64,000 nt of DNA from Pseudomonas putida (GTDB lineage: Bacteria > Pseudomonadota > Gammaproteobacteria > Pseudomonadales > Pseudomonadaceae). Below are positions 36,483 to 57,149 of the stretch, one piece after another. Within the stretch, counting starts at the first letter, position 1; each line of letters begins with the position of its first letter. The position numbers were made by a program, and so were the translations under genes. The notes under the pieces are model-generated. The model was not told the DNA's origin. It saw nothing but the letters and a program-made list of their open reading frames with translations, and searched no databases. The stretch spans positions 124,001-188,000 of the forward strand of contig NZ_MKZO01000047.1 in the NCBI RefSeq assembly GCF_001941965.1, read 5' to 3'.

Positions 36483-37076
36483 TCAGAAGGCCTGACCATT
36501 CATCCCGCTGCGCACGGTGCCCCTCACGAATGCCACGATCTGCTCCCGCGCGGTGCTGATCGCTCCCCATTGCCCCTGACCGCACAGCAGGCTCAGAACC
36601 GCCAGGGCAATGGGACGGGCCTGCGGCTCGGATGCCGGCCCGCATTCGGCGGCGATGATCTCGCTGAGCAGGTCGCTGTAGGCCGCCTTCAGTTCGTCTA
36701 TCTGGCCGATCTGTTCCGTACTCAGGTTGACCGCCTCGCGGGTCAGCAGGGTGAGTTTGTCCGGGTGCGCCTGGCTGAACGAAATGAACGCCTGGACGAA
36801 GCGCTGCAAGCGCTCGCCATTGCTCCGGCTGCCCTTCAGGCATTGCCTTGTTTCGTACAGGAGGTCGGTCAGGCTCGACTCGATCAGTTCGAACAACAAT
36901 CCCTGCTTGCTTTCGATATGGTGGTACAGCGACCCCGTGCGCAAACCCAGGTGGCTGGCCAGGTCACGCAGGCCGATGGCCTGGTAGCCATGGCTGGCGA
37001 ACAGGCTGCTGGCCGCCTCCAGCAAGCGATCGCGGGCGTCGGGGGAGGGCGGGGACAGGCGGCTGGCGGCGGGCAT
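36483..37076 (-). CDS. TetR-family transcriptional regulator
   Basis: A 197-residue TetR/AcrR regulator: HTH at about 16-60 (LLEAASSLFASHGYQAIGLR, then LRTGSLYHHIESKQGLL) and an all-helical ligand domain. It is divergent from the first SDR of the catabolic cluster. The 85-bp gap holds a promoter overlapped by the palindrome GTAAGA-N9-TCTTAC, and the same block recurs before the hydantoinase genes. It is therefore the likely repressor of the cluster, released by a pathway compound. Confidence 0.88.
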   Translation of the reverse strand: MPAASRLSPPSPDARDRLLEAASSLFASHGYQAIGLRDLASHLGLRTGSLYHHIESKQGLLFELIESSLTDLLYETRQCLKGSRSNGERLQRFVQAFISFSQAHPDKLTLLTREAVNLSTEQIGQIDELKAAYSDLLSEIIAAECGPASEPQARPIALAVLSLLCGQGQWGAISTAREQIVAFVRGTVRSGMNGQAF

Positions 37077-37103
37077 CGGGATGACCTGTGGGCGATTTGA
37101 TGT

Positions 37104-37140
37104 TTGACCAAATGTAAGACAACAGGCATCTTACGTAAAG
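37104..37140 (+). promoter_or_regulatory. Promoter-operator block 1 (probable TetR target)
   Basis: TTGACC (37104) and CATCTT (37127) are 17 nt apart, and the palindrome GTAAGA-N9-TCTTAC (37114-37134) lies across spacer and -10. It shares about 30 of 37 aligned bases with the block at 38803. It serves the SDR gene at 37162 and lies 38 nt from the TetR start. Confidence 0.7.
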
Positions 37141-37161
37141 ACTCAATCGCAGAGGTGGTTC

Positions 37162-37911
37162 ATGGAAAATCAAACGGTGGTGATCGTGGGCGGCGCATCG
37201 GGCCTGGGCCTGGAGACGGCGCGCCTGATGGTCAAGCGCGGGGCGACGAAGATCGGTCTGATCGACCGTAATGAGCAGTTGCTGGTACAGGCGGCAGAAG
37301 AGCTGCGCGGCCTGGGTGCCGAGGTGGCGCTGGCGGTTGGCGATATCGCCCGCAAGGACAGCGCCCACGGCGCGTTCGAGGAGATCGTCGCGGCCCTGGG
37401 CCGGGTGCATTGCCTGGTCAACAGCGCGGCGATCTACCCGCGCAAGGACATCTTCGAGATCACCGACGATGAATGGGACCTGGAAAACGCTGTCAATATC
37501 AAGGGCACCTACCACATGATGGTCGCGGCGGTGCGGCATATGCAGCAGTACGTGGCGGCGCCGGCAGTGACCGGGCGCATCGTCAACGTTACCTCGGTGG
37601 ATGCCTTCAAGGCTCACCCGCAGAACGCCCACTACGCGGCGACCAAGGCCGCCGTGGTCAGCCTGACCAAATCCTTCGCCCAGGCCTGTGCCAAGGACCA
37701 GATCCTGGTCAACTCGGTGGCCCCGGCCGGTTTCGCCACCGAGCGTGCCCGCCAGTTGGGCTTCCTCGGCGAACTGGCCGCCGCCAACCCGCTGGGCCGC
37801 GCCGCCGAGCCTGCGGAAATCGCCGAATGGATCGTGATGATGGGCAGCAGCCGCAACAGCTATGCCACCGGTGAAAACGTCATCGTCAGTGGGGGCTATA
37901 TCTATGCCTGA
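37162..37911 (+). CDS. Short-chain dehydrogenase/reductase
   Basis: A 249-residue classical SDR. The cofactor motif is GGASGLGLE (10-18), an aspartate after strand 2 (LIDRNE) points to NAD(H), and the catalytic residues are S145, Y158 and K162 (HYAATKAA). It presumably oxidises a hydroxyl group of the substrate or an intermediate. First gene of the set behind the TetR operator. It overlaps the next SDR by 8 nt. Substrate unknown. Confidence 0.85.
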
Positions 37912-54608: not shown

Positions 54609-55321
54609 AGAACATTCTCGAAGTCAGCGACCTCAAGGTCGCCTACGGTGCGATCCAGGCGATCAAGGGCATCGACCTCAAGGTCCGCGAAGGCGAGATG
54701 GTCGCCCTGATCGGTGCCAACGGTGCTGGCAAGACCACCACGCTGAAGACCCTTGGCGGCCTGCTCACTCCGAGTGCCGGGCAGATCACCTTCGACGGCA
54801 AGGCCCATTCGGCGATCAAGGCCTATGACCTGATCCGCGAGGGCCTGGCCCTGGTGCCGGAAGGGCGGGGCATCTTCCCCAAGCTGACCGTGCACGAGAA
54901 CCTGGAAATGGGCGCCTTTTCCCGGCGCGACGGCAAGGACGCGATCAACGCCGATATCGAGCGCATGTACGGCATTTTCCCGCGCCTCAAGGAGCGCGCC
55001 TTCCAGCTGGCCGGGACCATGTCCGGCGGCGAGCAGCAGATGCTGGCGATCTCTCGCGCGTTGATGGGCCGGCCCAAGCTGCTGTTGCTGGACGAGCCGT
55101 CCATGGGACTGGCGCCGATCATCGTGCAGAAGATCTTCGAAACCATCCGCGAGGTGGTCAAGGGCGGCGTGACCCTGCTGCTGGTCGAGCAGAACGCGCG
55201 CCTGGCGTTGCAGACCTGCGACCGCGCCTATGTGATCGATTCCGGGCGCATTGCCCTGGCGGGTGATTGCCACGAACTGCTGCATGACCAGCAGGTACAG
55301 AAGGCCTATCTCGGCGAATGA
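54605..55321 (+). CDS. ABC transporter ATPase, LivF type
   Basis: A 238-residue second ATPase of the importer: Walker [11 protein letters not shown], signature [15 protein letters not shown], Walker [14 protein letters not shown], and the LivF sequence [20 protein letters not shown]. It starts inside the end of the LivG gene (ATGA overlap). It is followed by the RidA gene after 31 nt. Confidence 0.94.
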
Positions 55322-55352
55322 CCGGGCTGTTTTTGAATGGAGAGGAAAAGCT

Positions 55353-55700
55353 GTGAACCAGATTGAACGCTACGGATTCGATACCCGGGTCCACCATGGG
55401 GTAAAGCACAACGGCGTGGTCTACCTGACCGGCCAGGTCGGCACGCCGGGAACTTCCGCCGCCGACCAGACCCGCGAGGTGCTGGGCAAGATCGATGAGT
55501 TGCTGGCCCAGGCCGGCACTGACAAGCGCCGCATCCTCAACGTCCAGCTGTGGCTGGACGATCTGCGCGACTTCGACGAGGTCAACCAGGTCTGGGATGC
55601 CTGGGTCGACACGGCGCACGCCCCGGCCCGTTCCACTGGCCAGGTGCGCATGACCAGGCCCGGCATGCTGGTGGAAATCATCGTTACCGCCGCGGCCTGA
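55353..55700 (+). CDS. RidA-family enamine/imine deaminase
   Basis: A 115-residue RidA/YjgF-family protein, starting with GTG behind GGAGAGG. It has GVVYLTGQVG, LNVQLWLDDLRDFDEVNQVW and the active-site arginine region PARSTGQVR. RidA enzymes hydrolyse reactive enamines and imines formed by PLP or flavin enzymes. Its place after the importer and with an amine oxidase and aminotransferase in the same cluster supports imine chemistry in the pathway. Confidence 0.88.
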   Translation: MNQIERYGFDTRVHHGVKHNGVVYLTGQVGTPGTSAADQTREVLGKIDELLAQAGTDKRRILNVQLWLDDLRDFDEVNQVWDAWVDTAHAPARSTGQVRMTRPGMLVEIIVTAAA

Positions 55701-55763
55701 GGGACGGTATTGGCTTTATCTCGCCGTCGTCCGCGCGACGGCGAAGTGCATCGAAGGTTTCAG

Positions 55764-57149
55764 ATGACGTCGCAATCACAAGAAAAACACGGCTCCCTGC
55801 AACATGGCCTGACCTCTCGTCAGGTCTCCATGATTTCCATCGCCGGCATCATCGGTGCCGGCCTGTTCATTGGTTCGTCCAATGCCATCGCCTCGGCCGG
55901 CCCGGCGATTCTCATCTCCTACGCCATGACCGGCCTGCTGGTGTTGCTGGTGATGCGCATGCTCGGCGAAATGGCCGTGGCCAACCCCGACAGCGGCTCG
56001 TTCTCCACCTATGCCGGGCAGGCCATCGGGCCCTGGGCTGGTTTTACCATCGGCTGGCTGTACTGGTGGTTCTGGGTGCTGATCATCCCGGTCGAGGCCA
56101 TCGCTGGCGCGGACATTCTGCACGCCTGGTTCCCGGCCGTGCCGTCCTGGTTGTTCGCCTTCCTGATCATGGGCGTGCTGGCCTGCAGCAACCTGGTTAG
56201 CGTGAAGAACTTCGGCGAGTTCGAATTCTGGTTCGCCCTGGTCAAGGTGCTGGCGATCATCGCCTTTATCGTGGTCGGTGCCATGGCGGTGTCTGGTTTC
56301 TGGCCACTGGCGCAGGTTTCCGGGGTCAGCCAACTGTGGGCCAATGGCGGCTTCATGCCCAATGGTTTCGGCACGGTGCTGGGCGGGGTGCTGATCACCA
56401 TCTTCTCGTTCTTCGGTGCCGAGATCGTCACCATTGCCGCCGATGAAACCTCCAATCCCCAGGAGAAGATCCGTCGTGCCACCAACCTGGTGGTGTACCG
56501 CATCGCGATCTTCTACCTGGTGTCGATCTTCCTGGTGGTGTCGCTGGTGGCCTGGAATGACCCGGGGCTCAAGGCGGTGGGGTCTTTCCAGCGGGTGCTG
56601 GAGGTTCTGAATGTGCCGGGGGCCAAGCTGATCGTCGACCTGGTGGTCCTGGTGGCGGTGACCAGTTGCATGAACTCGGGGCTGTATACCGCGTCGCGCA
56701 TGTTGCATTCGCTGGGTGCCCGGGGCGAGGCGCTGCCGATTGTCCGGCGGGTCTCGCGCAATGGCGTGCCGGTGGTGGCGGTGTTGTTGTCGACCCTGGC
56801 CGGGTTTGGAGGCTGTGTCGTGAACTATGTGTTTCCGGGCAAGGTGTTCAGCTTCCTGCTCTCGACCACCGGGTCGATTGCCTTGCTGGTGTACCTGGTG
56901 ATCGCCGTGTCCCAGCTGCGCATGCGGGCGCGAGCCGAGCGGGCAGGGACGCCACCGGCGTTTCGCATGTGGCTGTTCCCTTGGCTGACCTGGCTGGTGA
57001 TCGCGGCGATCCTCACGGTGCTGGGCTATATGCTGGTCAGCGATGCCTATCGCTACGAGGCGCTGATGACGGCGGGGGTGACCCTGTTCATCCTGCTGGT
57101 GTGCTTTACCCGGCAGCGGGTGCCGGGGTTGGCGGCTGCTGTGGATTGA
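55764..57149 (+). CDS. Amino-acid permease (APC superfamily, AAT/GabP-like)
   Basis: A 461-residue transporter with twelve membrane segments. It has the family opening SRQVSMISIAGIIGAGLFIG and the FGAEIVTIAADETSNPQEKI motif of the AAT group that includes GabP. It gives the cluster a second, proton-driven uptake route beside the ABC importer, perhaps for an intermediate amino acid. It starts 63 nt after ridA, so it is probably co-transcribed. Substrate unknown. Confidence 0.88.
   Translation: MTSQSQEKHGSLQHGLTSRQVSMISIAGIIGAGLFIGSSNAIASAGPAILISYAMTGLLVLLVMRMLGEMAVANPDSGSFSTYAGQAIGPWAGFTIGWLYWWFWVLIIPVEAIAGADILHAWFPAVPSWLFAFLIMGVLACSNLVSVKNFGEFEFWFALVKVLAIIAFIVVGAMAVSGFWPLAQVSGVSQLWANGGFMPNGFGTVLGGVLITIFSFFGAEIVTIAADETSNPQEKIRRATNLVVYRIAIFYLVSIFLVVSLVAWNDPGLKAVGSFQRVLEVLNVPGAKLIVDLVVLVAVTSCMNSGLYTASRMLHSLGARGEALPIVRRVSRNGVPVVAVLLSTLAGFGGCVVNYVFPGKVFSFLLSTTGSIALLVYLVIAVSQLRMRARAERAGTPPAFRMWLFPWLTWLVIAAILTVLGYMLVSDAYRYEALMTAGVTLFILLVCFTRQRVPGLAAAVD

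Follow-up and report, generated by a model that had tools for sequence, protein, structure and literature searches.

A 64,000-nucleotide stretch of a Pseudomonas putida contig (NZ_MKZO01000047.1, positions 124,001 to 188,000), hereafter the window, carries at positions 36483-57149 a block of catabolic, transport and regulatory genes that includes a HyuA/HyuB pair, a DAO-family oxidoreductase and a short-chain dehydrogenase/reductase (SDR) resembling uronate dehydrogenase (Udh). A preliminary description of the window had presented the block as seventeen intact genes for the use of a nitrogen-containing compound. Reading of the open frames together with profile searches confirms the block and the families named for it, with a corrected count of 18 open genes. 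The left half extends from the TetR gene to the aldehyde dehydrogenase (ALDH) gene and the right half from the GntR-FCD gene to the permease gene, in the order listed here (ThDP, thiamine diphosphate; AspAT, aspartate aminotransferase; SSADH, succinic semialdehyde dehydrogenase; GABA, 4-aminobutyrate).

36483..37076 (-): TetR-family regulator, divergent from SDR1 (Pfam TetR_N, TetR_C_24)
37162..37911 (+): SDR1, FabG-like
37904..38659 (+): SDR2, YdfG-like, start codon overlapping the end of SDR1
38889..40970 (+): HyuA, predicted ATP-binding subunit of an ATP-dependent lactamase (Pfam Hydantoinase_A)
40994..42658 (+): HyuB, predicted metal-dependent ring-opening subunit (Pfam Hydantoinase_B)
42660..43862 (+): class I aminotransferase, AspAT-like, PRK06107 group
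43885..44697 (+): Udh-like SDR, proposed lactam-forming cyclic hemiaminal dehydrogenase
44724..45920 (+): DAO/SoxB-type FAD oxidoreductase, proposed cyclic amine oxidase or dehydrogenase (Pfam DAO)
45946..47631 (+): ThDP enzyme, PRK08199 group (888 bits against a cut-off of 539), proposed 2-oxo acid decarboxylase
47695..49143 (+): SSADH/GabD-like ALDH, with the GabD Ser replaced by Ala
49260..49985 (-): GntR-FCD regulator, likely owner of the three operators (Pfam GntR and FCD)
50367..51506 (+): periplasmic binding protein, Liv type (best solved relative 3ip5)
51642..52580 (+): LivH-type permease
52591..53838 (+): LivM-type permease
53835..54608 (+): LivG-type ATPase
54605..55321 (+): LivF-type ATPase
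55353..55700 (+): RidA/YjgF-type protein, accessory
55764..57149 (+): GABA-permease-like (GabP-like) amino acid permease, accessory (TIGR01773, 657 bits, below the cut-off of 678)

Spacing within the sub-operons is as tight as had been described: with the start codons chosen here, SDR1 and SDR2 overlap, HyuB and the aminotransferase gene are 1 bp apart, and LivM/LivG and LivG/LivF each overlap by 4 bp.

Shared operator and conserved core

Alignment of the regions upstream of the Pseudomonas-type homologous loci (loci and genomes are designated below by L and G numbers) revealed strongly conserved islands before SDR1, HyuA and the binding-protein gene, all of which contain TGTAAGAYAACA. With at most one mismatch allowed, this 12-mer matches at three places in the window, each time without a mismatch, whereas shuffled sequences give an expectation of 0.06. 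In the whole 7.06-Mb genome its exact form occurs three times, always before these three genes, and the reversed control not at all. The sites and an associated promoter-like sequence are as follows.

37113..37135 (+): operator site 1, before SDR1 (TGTAAGACAACA ... TCTTACG), conserved motif
38812..38834 (+): operator site 2, before HyuA (TGTAAGACAACA ... ACTTACG), conserved motif
50209..50239 (+): promoter-like TTGACA-16-TATCTT, before the binding-protein gene
50228-50239 (-): operator site 3, TGTAAGATAACA, overlapping the promoter-like site

Site 3 covers the -10 element of the promoter-like site, a placement that would suit a repressor. When 11 Pseudomonas-type loci were scanned with an 11-mer, three sites were found in eight of them; L003, where the import operon is absent, and L007 have two each, and L010 has none; L007 and L010 start at or near HyuA. 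The restriction of the motif to the three promoters of the block and its recurrence in Pseudomonas loci support the earlier view of a single regulon, which consists of three operons sharing one operator.

The operator core TTGTCTTACA differs at one position from TNGTNNNACNA, which we take to be the consensus of FadR-type GntR regulators, and the GntR-FCD protein of the block probably binds the shared operator. A GntR-type regulator fits better than the TetR protein because the latter is poorly conserved (detected in 8 of 11 Pseudomonas-type loci, at 43-79% identity) and was undetected in 12 Rhizobiaceae-type loci; TetR is accordingly regarded as the less likely regulator of the block. A GntR-FCD orthologue, 54-58% identical, is encoded in all 12 Rhizobiaceae-type loci, and sequence comparison suggests that it has switched operator there. 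By eye, a motif resembling ATAAGTGATA precedes HyuA and SDR1 in the rhizobial loci L012, L013, L015, L016, L019, L021, L022 and L032, with a related motif before GntR.

The block is rare in the genus: a HyuA orthologue occurs in 5 of 139 genomes, that of the window included, each time with a ThDP gene within about 7 kb, and ThDP homologues occur in 11. A genome-wide scan for the ThDP gene gave, among the matches listed, 80 loci that serve here as the homologous loci. HyuA is present in 24 of them at an identity of at least 60%, and a threshold of 40% likewise divides them into 24 with and 56 without. HyuB, the aminotransferase and the ThDP enzyme accompany HyuA in 24/24 loci, the Udh-like protein and DAO in 23/24 (the exception, L035, ends 0.4 kb past the ThDP gene), and SDR1 with SDR2 in 22/24 (L007 and L010 start with HyuA, where the contig ends). 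The order HyuA-HyuB-aminotransferase-Udh-DAO-ThDP is common to Pseudomonas-type and Rhizobiaceae-type loci (23/24). In the 12 Rhizobiaceae-type loci, from Rhizobium, Ensifer, Shinella and relatives, this core is followed by GntR, YdiJ and then SDR1-SDR2, with SDR1 75-80% identical in every one, and the importers differ from the Liv-type system of the window. The rhizobial YdiJ, a large FAD/FeS-type protein, is identified as D-2-hydroxyglutarate dehydrogenase by its NCBIfam name (L015, 1496 bits against a cut-off of 1350); it lies inside all 12 of these blocks and, by its coordinates, is the sole YdiJ found in each of the seven rhizobial genomes searched.

The remaining genes are less constant. 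ALDH is missing from two of the 11 Pseudomonas-type loci (L003 and L011), and among the nine loci with LivF, RidA was detected in two and the GabP-like permease in four, L009 ending about 0.5 kb past LivF. The catabolic core shared with Rhizobiaceae is thus SDR1, SDR2, HyuA, HyuB, the aminotransferase, the Udh-like SDR, DAO and the ThDP enzyme, whereas ALDH, importer, RidA and permease are exchangeable, and the 18 genes do not behave as an inseparable whole. The preliminary description had asked whether the whole block travels together and had counted routine separation of its sub-operons against a common pathway; the catabolic core does travel together, and such separation is seen for the import operon.

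A repetitive extragenic palindromic (REP) element at about 38672-38770 lies between SDR2 and HyuA, where most of the 90 matches of the query in the genome fall, and an inverted pair of REP-like repeats lies at about 49160-49241, between ALDH and GntR-FCD. The HyuA operon is flanked by these REP-type palindromes, of which the genome holds dozens of similar copies. To the left of the block, at 33327-36088 (-), the translations resemble a NapA-like nitrate reductase and a small NapD-like protein; to its right are a gene for an AbrB-family membrane protein (-) and then a LysR gene.

The Udh-like protein and its partners

The third SDR of the block, which the preliminary description had grouped with the other SDRs for hydroxyl oxidation, is not a generic alcohol dehydrogenase and belongs by sequence to a separate clade of the Udh family that pairs with DAO and HyuAB. 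In a tree of 66 Udh-family proteins, 24 whose genes are linked to DAO or HyuB form one group with L169 (support 99/96), the 41 others fall outside, and the label changes are below those of all 500 shuffles; the genome of L169, G340, carries DAO-HyuAB on another contig. The tree covers places fetched as loci, with 79 distinct rows, from which 13 near-duplicate Pseudomonas and Rhizobium rows, all linked, were omitted. In a quick tree, the solved Udhs 3rft and 3ay3 group with the canonical proteins, and the 25 linked ones occupy one side of a branch supported at 97. Ser75 (AtUdh numbering) is present in 41/41 canonical rows versus 0/25 linked rows, and Asn112 in 41/41 versus 5/25, the five being Pseudomonas-type rows; Arg174, Ser111, His113, Tyr136 and Lys140 are invariant in both sets. 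We take Tyr and Lys to be catalytic, Arg174 to bind the carboxylate, and Ser75 and Asn112 to contact hydroxyls of the substrate. On these presumed roles, the hydroxyl-contacting positions would have changed and the carboxylate-binding and catalytic ones would have stayed.

The block protein, to which the nearest canonical Udhs are 48-57% identical, therefore shares with uronate dehydrogenase the family, the catalytic Tyr/Lys/Ser and Arg174, and differs from it in lacking Ser75 and in not grouping with the solved Udhs. The genome of the window encodes two further Udhs, both among the canonical ones: one at 61608-62396 (-), 4.5 kb past the block and 55% identical, and the other on contig C22. 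Because the third SDR belongs to a clade paired with DAO and HyuAB, the lactam for HyuAB is probably made inside the pathway and not imported.

The pairing extends to smaller gene sets. A phylum sample of 398 genomes contains 30 with HyuA at E <= 1e-150 and 70 with a Udh-family gene at E <= 1e-45; of the 30, wider HyuA neighbourhoods were fetched for 18 and then for three more (G319, G204 and G522), and the 18 together with 20 further neighbourhoods were examined for the architecture of the unit. Of the 15 genomes whose HyuA is at least 57% identical, that of the window included, 11 have by coordinates a Udh-family gene no more than 5 kb from HyuA; of the 15 below 57%, none does. The four-gene unit HyuA-HyuB-DAO-Udh stands alone, without aminotransferase, ThDP enzyme or SDRs, in L120, L123, L126 and L166. 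In L118 and L119 the arrangement is ThDP-HyuA-HyuB-Udh-DAO, and in L117 it is ThDP-HyuA-HyuB-aminotransferase-Udh, with a gene for an FAD-linked GlcD-like oxidase and an importer with a family-3 binding protein upstream. Adjacency of DAO and Udh is kept where HyuAB lies elsewhere, with gaps of 5 bp in L168, 25 bp in L170 and 804 bp, occupied by an aldolase gene, in L171. A gap similar to those of L122 and L171 separates DAO from the Udh-like gene in L184, and near the pair in L168 a glutamine-synthetase-like ligase gene (6972-8348, -) and, adjoining DAO, a gene for an Lrp-type regulator were noted.

Profile and residue comparisons place the other enzymes within their families. Both HyuA and HyuB match the Pfam families of ATP-dependent lactamases (HyuAB/CapAB/OplAH) and keep the relevant residues: HyuA Asp13 and Asp290, in DxGGT and DMGGT motifs, align with the ATP-motif Asp11 and Asp295 of CapA, and, by motif and spacing, the CapB metal ligands Asp41/His99/Asp102/His124 correspond to HyuB Asp42/His102/Asp105/His127. 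The pair is not caprolactamase CapAB as defined by the NCBIfam equivalogs, with scores of 447.6 and 193.4 bits against a curated cut-off of 1000. The best solved relative of HyuA is listed as N-methylhydantoinase, and that of the SoxB-type DAO, 1y56_B, as sarcosine oxidase. The PLP lysine and the AKQ lysine of the class I aminotransferase, the latter of which we take to be the distal-carboxylate contact of AspAT, are present in 29/29 aligned homologues, near-duplicates included. ALDH scores above the cut-off of the SSADH subfamily model TIGR01780 (701 against 646 bits) and below that of PRK11241 (821 against 828). Of the presumed Arg/Arg/Ser carboxylate site of GabD, Arg165 and Arg283 are kept and Ser is replaced by Ala, in the query and in 13/13 aligned block homologues from about ten distinct genomes.

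A proposed lactam route and its alternatives

With a little more confidence than doubt, we favor the reading that this regulon, inducible by its substrate, would import a cyclic secondary amino acid and degrade it through a lactam, the reactions and the substrate being read from sequence. DAO would convert the amine of the ring into a cyclic imine, whose hydration would give a cyclic hemiaminal. The Udh-like SDR would turn the hemiaminal into a lactam, as uronate dehydrogenase turns a uronate hemiacetal into an aldaro-1,5-lactone, and HyuAB would open the lactam at the expense of ATP to give a dicarboxylic amino acid. The AspAT-like aminotransferase would yield a 2-oxo diacid, the ThDP enzyme would decarboxylate this to a semialdehyde, and the GabD-like ALDH, or a housekeeping one, would produce the diacid, while SDR1 and SDR2 would oxidize or invert a ring hydroxyl. 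The earlier outline of a nitrogen-compound pathway with ATP-dependent ring opening, transamination, decarboxylation and aldehyde oxidation accordingly stays plausible. Its suggested end in succinate lacks specific support, given the Ser to Ala change in ALDH (13/13) and the YdiJ genes of the 12/12 rhizobial-type blocks.

Given a lactam route, a six-membered ring is a tentative choice, for which the likely class would probably be a pipecolate-type compound hydroxylated at the carbon adjacent to the one destined to be the lactam carbonyl. According to the available excerpts, the product bound in a Udh crystal is the six-membered 1,5-lactone (PMC6353982), and 1-piperideine-6-carboxylate (P6C) and 6-hydroxypipecolate are in rapid equilibrium (PMC13113814). 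In the uronate ring, the heteroatom sits between the oxidized carbon and the carboxylate-bearing carbon, and 6-hydroxypipecolate, the hydrate of P6C, would offer the same geometry with N in place of O; the lactam 6-oxopipecolate is the product of its oxidation. The YdiJ genes of the rhizobial-type blocks mildly favor a hydroxylated pipecolate-type substrate, because a hydroxyl beside the future lactam carbonyl would give 2-hydroxyglutarate, and would also provide a task for the SDR pair. In the case of a 5-hydroxypipecolate-type substrate, 2-amino-5-hydroxyadipate would lead by way of 2-hydroxyglutarate semialdehyde to D-2-hydroxyglutarate and, via YdiJ, to 2-oxoglutarate; that 5-hydroxypipecolate itself is the substrate we consider rather unlikely. 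Loss of the GabD Ser from the block ALDHs would also count for the six-membered ring. In addition, two ThDP homologues, 69-71% identical, adjoin HglS and 2-aminoadipate transaminase genes scoring above NCBIfam cut-offs (L014 and L026). L026 (Pseudomonas arsenicoxydans, 3839-12829) contains 2-aminoadipate transaminase, YdiJ, HglS, the ThDP gene and a pyrroline/piperideine-2-carboxylate reductase, in a compact cluster that holds most of the late lysine pathway together with an unexplained ThDP enzyme; its YdiJ and reductase genes likewise exceed the NCBIfam cut-offs. Plain pipecolate was considered as a substrate and is less likely: HglS and YdiJ are both encoded outside the block in the window genome, HglS on another contig, and the ThDP enzyme and the SDR pair would be idle.

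Several observations weigh against the lactam route or its six-membered form. The unit is not uniform: in L117 Udh is present without a DAO match, in L124 the Udh gene is on a different contig from DAO-HyuAB, in L121 HyuAB adjoins neither DAO nor Udh (its DAO-Udh pair, L170, lies on another contig), and in L125 there is only a different DAO-family protein, in a genome, G372, without a Udh match; moreover, the ThDP enzyme, aminotransferase and SDRs are missing from the four-gene versions. In L122 and L171, DAO and Udh are separated by a gene for an HpaI-type aldolase, which in L171 adjoins a glycerate 2-kinase-like gene. For these two loci at least, this points to a 4-hydroxy-2-oxo acid and therefore to a different ring size or position of the hydroxyl. 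As to Udh, for 27 of the 41 rows counted as unlinked that judgment covers no more than about 1.5 kb of flanking sequence, our searches did not confirm the assumed site roles, and the substrate of the five Pseudomonas-type proteins with Asn112 may still bear a hydroxyl at the corresponding position. HyuA residues are no marker of the route, as far as sequences tell: the CapA substrate-site residues Asn269 and Asp302 are Glu and Lys in the query and in 40/40 loci of at least 57% identity (the window and near-duplicates included), and the idea that N269E/D302K proves a carboxylated lactam was rejected, the same residues occurring in Udh-unlinked HyuA proteins. The lysine-type context is thin as well. 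HglS with 2-aminoadipate transaminase occurs in only 2 of the 56 HyuA-less ThDP loci and a saccharopine-dehydrogenase-like gene in three, most of these loci having other neighbors (e.g., L023 and L092-L096); because of the 2/56, our confidence in a six-membered ring was lowered slightly. HglS is encoded elsewhere in six of the seven rhizobial genomes searched, and the rhizobial block YdiJ may simply serve lysine degradation, while plain pipecolate would need no block in the window genome because HglS and YdiJ lie elsewhere in it. The aldolases of L122 and L171 suggest an aldol-cleavage variant of the lactam route, and the unit may act on different rings in different lineages.

Among the alternatives, the one with most in its favor, although we still consider it unlikely, keeps the lactam route and shrinks the ring: a (hydroxy)proline isomer or an N-substituted proline would pass through (hydroxy)-5-oxoproline to a glutamate analogue, then to succinic or malic semialdehyde and the diacid. 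The DAO relative 1y56_B, presumably a proline dehydrogenase subunit, the binding-protein relative 3ip5, which we take to bind GABA or proline, the GabP-like permease and the SSADH-like ALDH would all suit such a substrate, as would the HpaI-type aldolases of L122 and L171, which fit 4-hydroxy-2-oxoglutarate. It is opposed by the rhizobial-block YdiJ, which points to a C5 hydroxy diacid, by the six-membered lactone that excerpts report for canonical Udh, and by the lost GabD Ser of ALDH. A route from GABA or 2-pyrrolidone to succinate, to which GabP, SSADH and RidA might point, was dropped, since ALDH, RidA and permease are exchangeable and the GabD Ser is lost; it would also leave the aminotransferase, the ThDP enzyme, Udh and the SDRs unexplained. 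Import of an N-alkyl lactam or hydantoin, with HyuAB acting first, DAO demethylating or deaminating the opened product, ALDH forming succinate and the Udh-like SDR in a separate role, is improbable in our judgment. It would explain the N-methylhydantoinase listing of the HyuA relative and the co-occurrence of HyuAB, DAO and an SSADH-like ALDH, presumably the set of the N-methylpyrrolidone nmp cluster, yet the tight pairing of DAO with Udh even where HyuAB lies elsewhere, the aminotransferase, the ThDP enzyme and the SDR pair would go unexplained.

Slightly less credible still is a block for an amino-uronic or imino-sugar acid in which the Udh-like SDR oxidizes a uronate-like amino sugar acid. 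The protein is of the Udh family, keeps Arg174 and the catalytic residues and, in Pseudomonas-type rows, Asn112; but its clade is separate, Ser75 is found in 0/25 linked rows and Asn112 is lost in 20/25, the window genome has two canonical Udhs besides, and family searches found no recognizable sugar-acid enzymes in the core. That the block merely juxtaposes unrelated catabolic operons, as variation of importer, ALDH, RidA and permease between relatives might indicate, is scarcely credible in view of the unique operator shared by three promoters and of a core order that Pseudomonas-type and rhizobial loci have in common.

Relation to known systems and significance

The block agrees with no pathway found in the open-licence literature, as the preliminary description had judged: among the papers listed, searches there found no pathway with this gene set and no hemiaminal dehydrogenase step, nothing that pairs uronate dehydrogenase with hydantoinase, no bacterial gene cluster for hydroxypipecolate degradation, nothing on the rhizobial gene set and nothing relevant on nmp. 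Each family is known, and, within that literature, the novelty would lie in the combination and in the proposed hemiaminal dehydrogenase step. The arginine transaminase pathway, AruH-AruI, comprises a class I aminotransferase and a ThDP 2-oxo acid decarboxylase resembling acetohydroxyacid synthase; to our knowledge, it acts on an open-chain guanidino acid and has no lactam module. A family search bearing on an AruHI-type route had matches in 4 of 40 genomes of the genus and left AruI unidentified. The nmpABCDEF cluster of Alicycliphilus for N-methylpyrrolidone combines a HyuAB-type lactamase with an amino acid oxidase and SSADH, and we know of no Udh-like SDR, ThDP enzyme or SDR pair in it. 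Uronate dehydrogenase (EC 1.1.1.203) of the oxidative hexuronate pathway is of the same family as the Udh-like SDR and oxidizes the ring hemiacetal carbon beside the heteroatom, a reaction akin to that proposed for the block protein; the block clade differs in its tie to DAO/HyuAB and in missing Ser75 (25/25) and Asn112 (20/25).

YdiJ presumably also acts in the P. putida lysine/pipecolate pathway. According to the available excerpts, this pathway leads from D-lysine and L-pipecolate through 2-aminoadipate and 2-oxoadipate to D-2-hydroxyglutarate by means of AmaD, DpkA, AmaA, AmaB, an aminotransferase and HglS (PMC12930750, PMC7286885). The proposed route resembles it in cyclic imino acid oxidation, a dicarboxylic amino acid, a 2-oxo diacid and a D-2-hydroxy acid, and two ThDP homologues sit among such genes; it differs in that, as far as the excerpts go, P6C is converted to 2-aminoadipate via AmaB, without a lactam, ATP-dependent lactamase, Udh-like SDR or ThDP decarboxylase. 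The block is not that pathway, with HglS in 0 of the 24 HyuA loci and no class III transaminase among its 18 proteins in family searches. The caprolactam pathway of Pseudomonas jessenii also has a two-subunit ATP-dependent lactamase, CapAB, followed by an aminotransferase (PMC6061476, PMC8453981); there, the lactam is the imported substrate, and the excerpts mention no DAO, Udh or ThDP step, whereas HyuA and HyuB of the block score far below the CapA/CapB cut-offs and carry two changed CapA substrate-site residues. In the molinate/azepane route of Gulosibacter molinativorax, a saturated N-ring is hydroxylated to a hemiaminal, a proposed dehydrogenase gives caprolactam and the ring is opened, the candidate genes being scattered and of other families in the excerpted text; resting cells with HyuAB of that organism did not degrade caprolactam, and ChnC did (PMC9477822).

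It is also tempting, though with more doubt than confidence, to regard DAO, a Udh-family "cyclic hemiaminal dehydrogenase" and ATP-dependent HyuAB as a general module that would open saturated N-heterocyclic amino acids via lactams, with the Pseudomonas/rhizobial regulon as its elaborated form for plant hydroxylated pipecolates; bacterial enzymes for the formation and the opening of 6-oxopipecolate would belong to the module. This lactam accumulates in human ALDH7A1 deficiency. According to excerpts of the report on it, two origins have been proposed in humans, one by cyclization of 2-aminoadipate and the other through a cytosolic dehydrogenase that is yet to be identified, and human liver fractions showed no reopening of the lactam (PMC13113814). 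The predicted pair of a 6-hydroxypipecolate dehydrogenase and a 6-oxopipecolate lactamase would bear on an open step in human lysine metabolism. If the proposed lactam route is right, bacteria would possess a second general way to open cyclic amino acids, in which the ring is locked as a lactam and its opening is paid for with ATP, in contrast to the known way, which waits for the imine hydrate to open and then oxidizes the aldehyde. It would assign a function to a recurring gene set that matches models named "hydantoinase," "sarcosine oxidase" and "epimerase," would add a new activity to the uronate dehydrogenase family, and would connect bacteria of the rhizosphere with a class of imino acids from plants.

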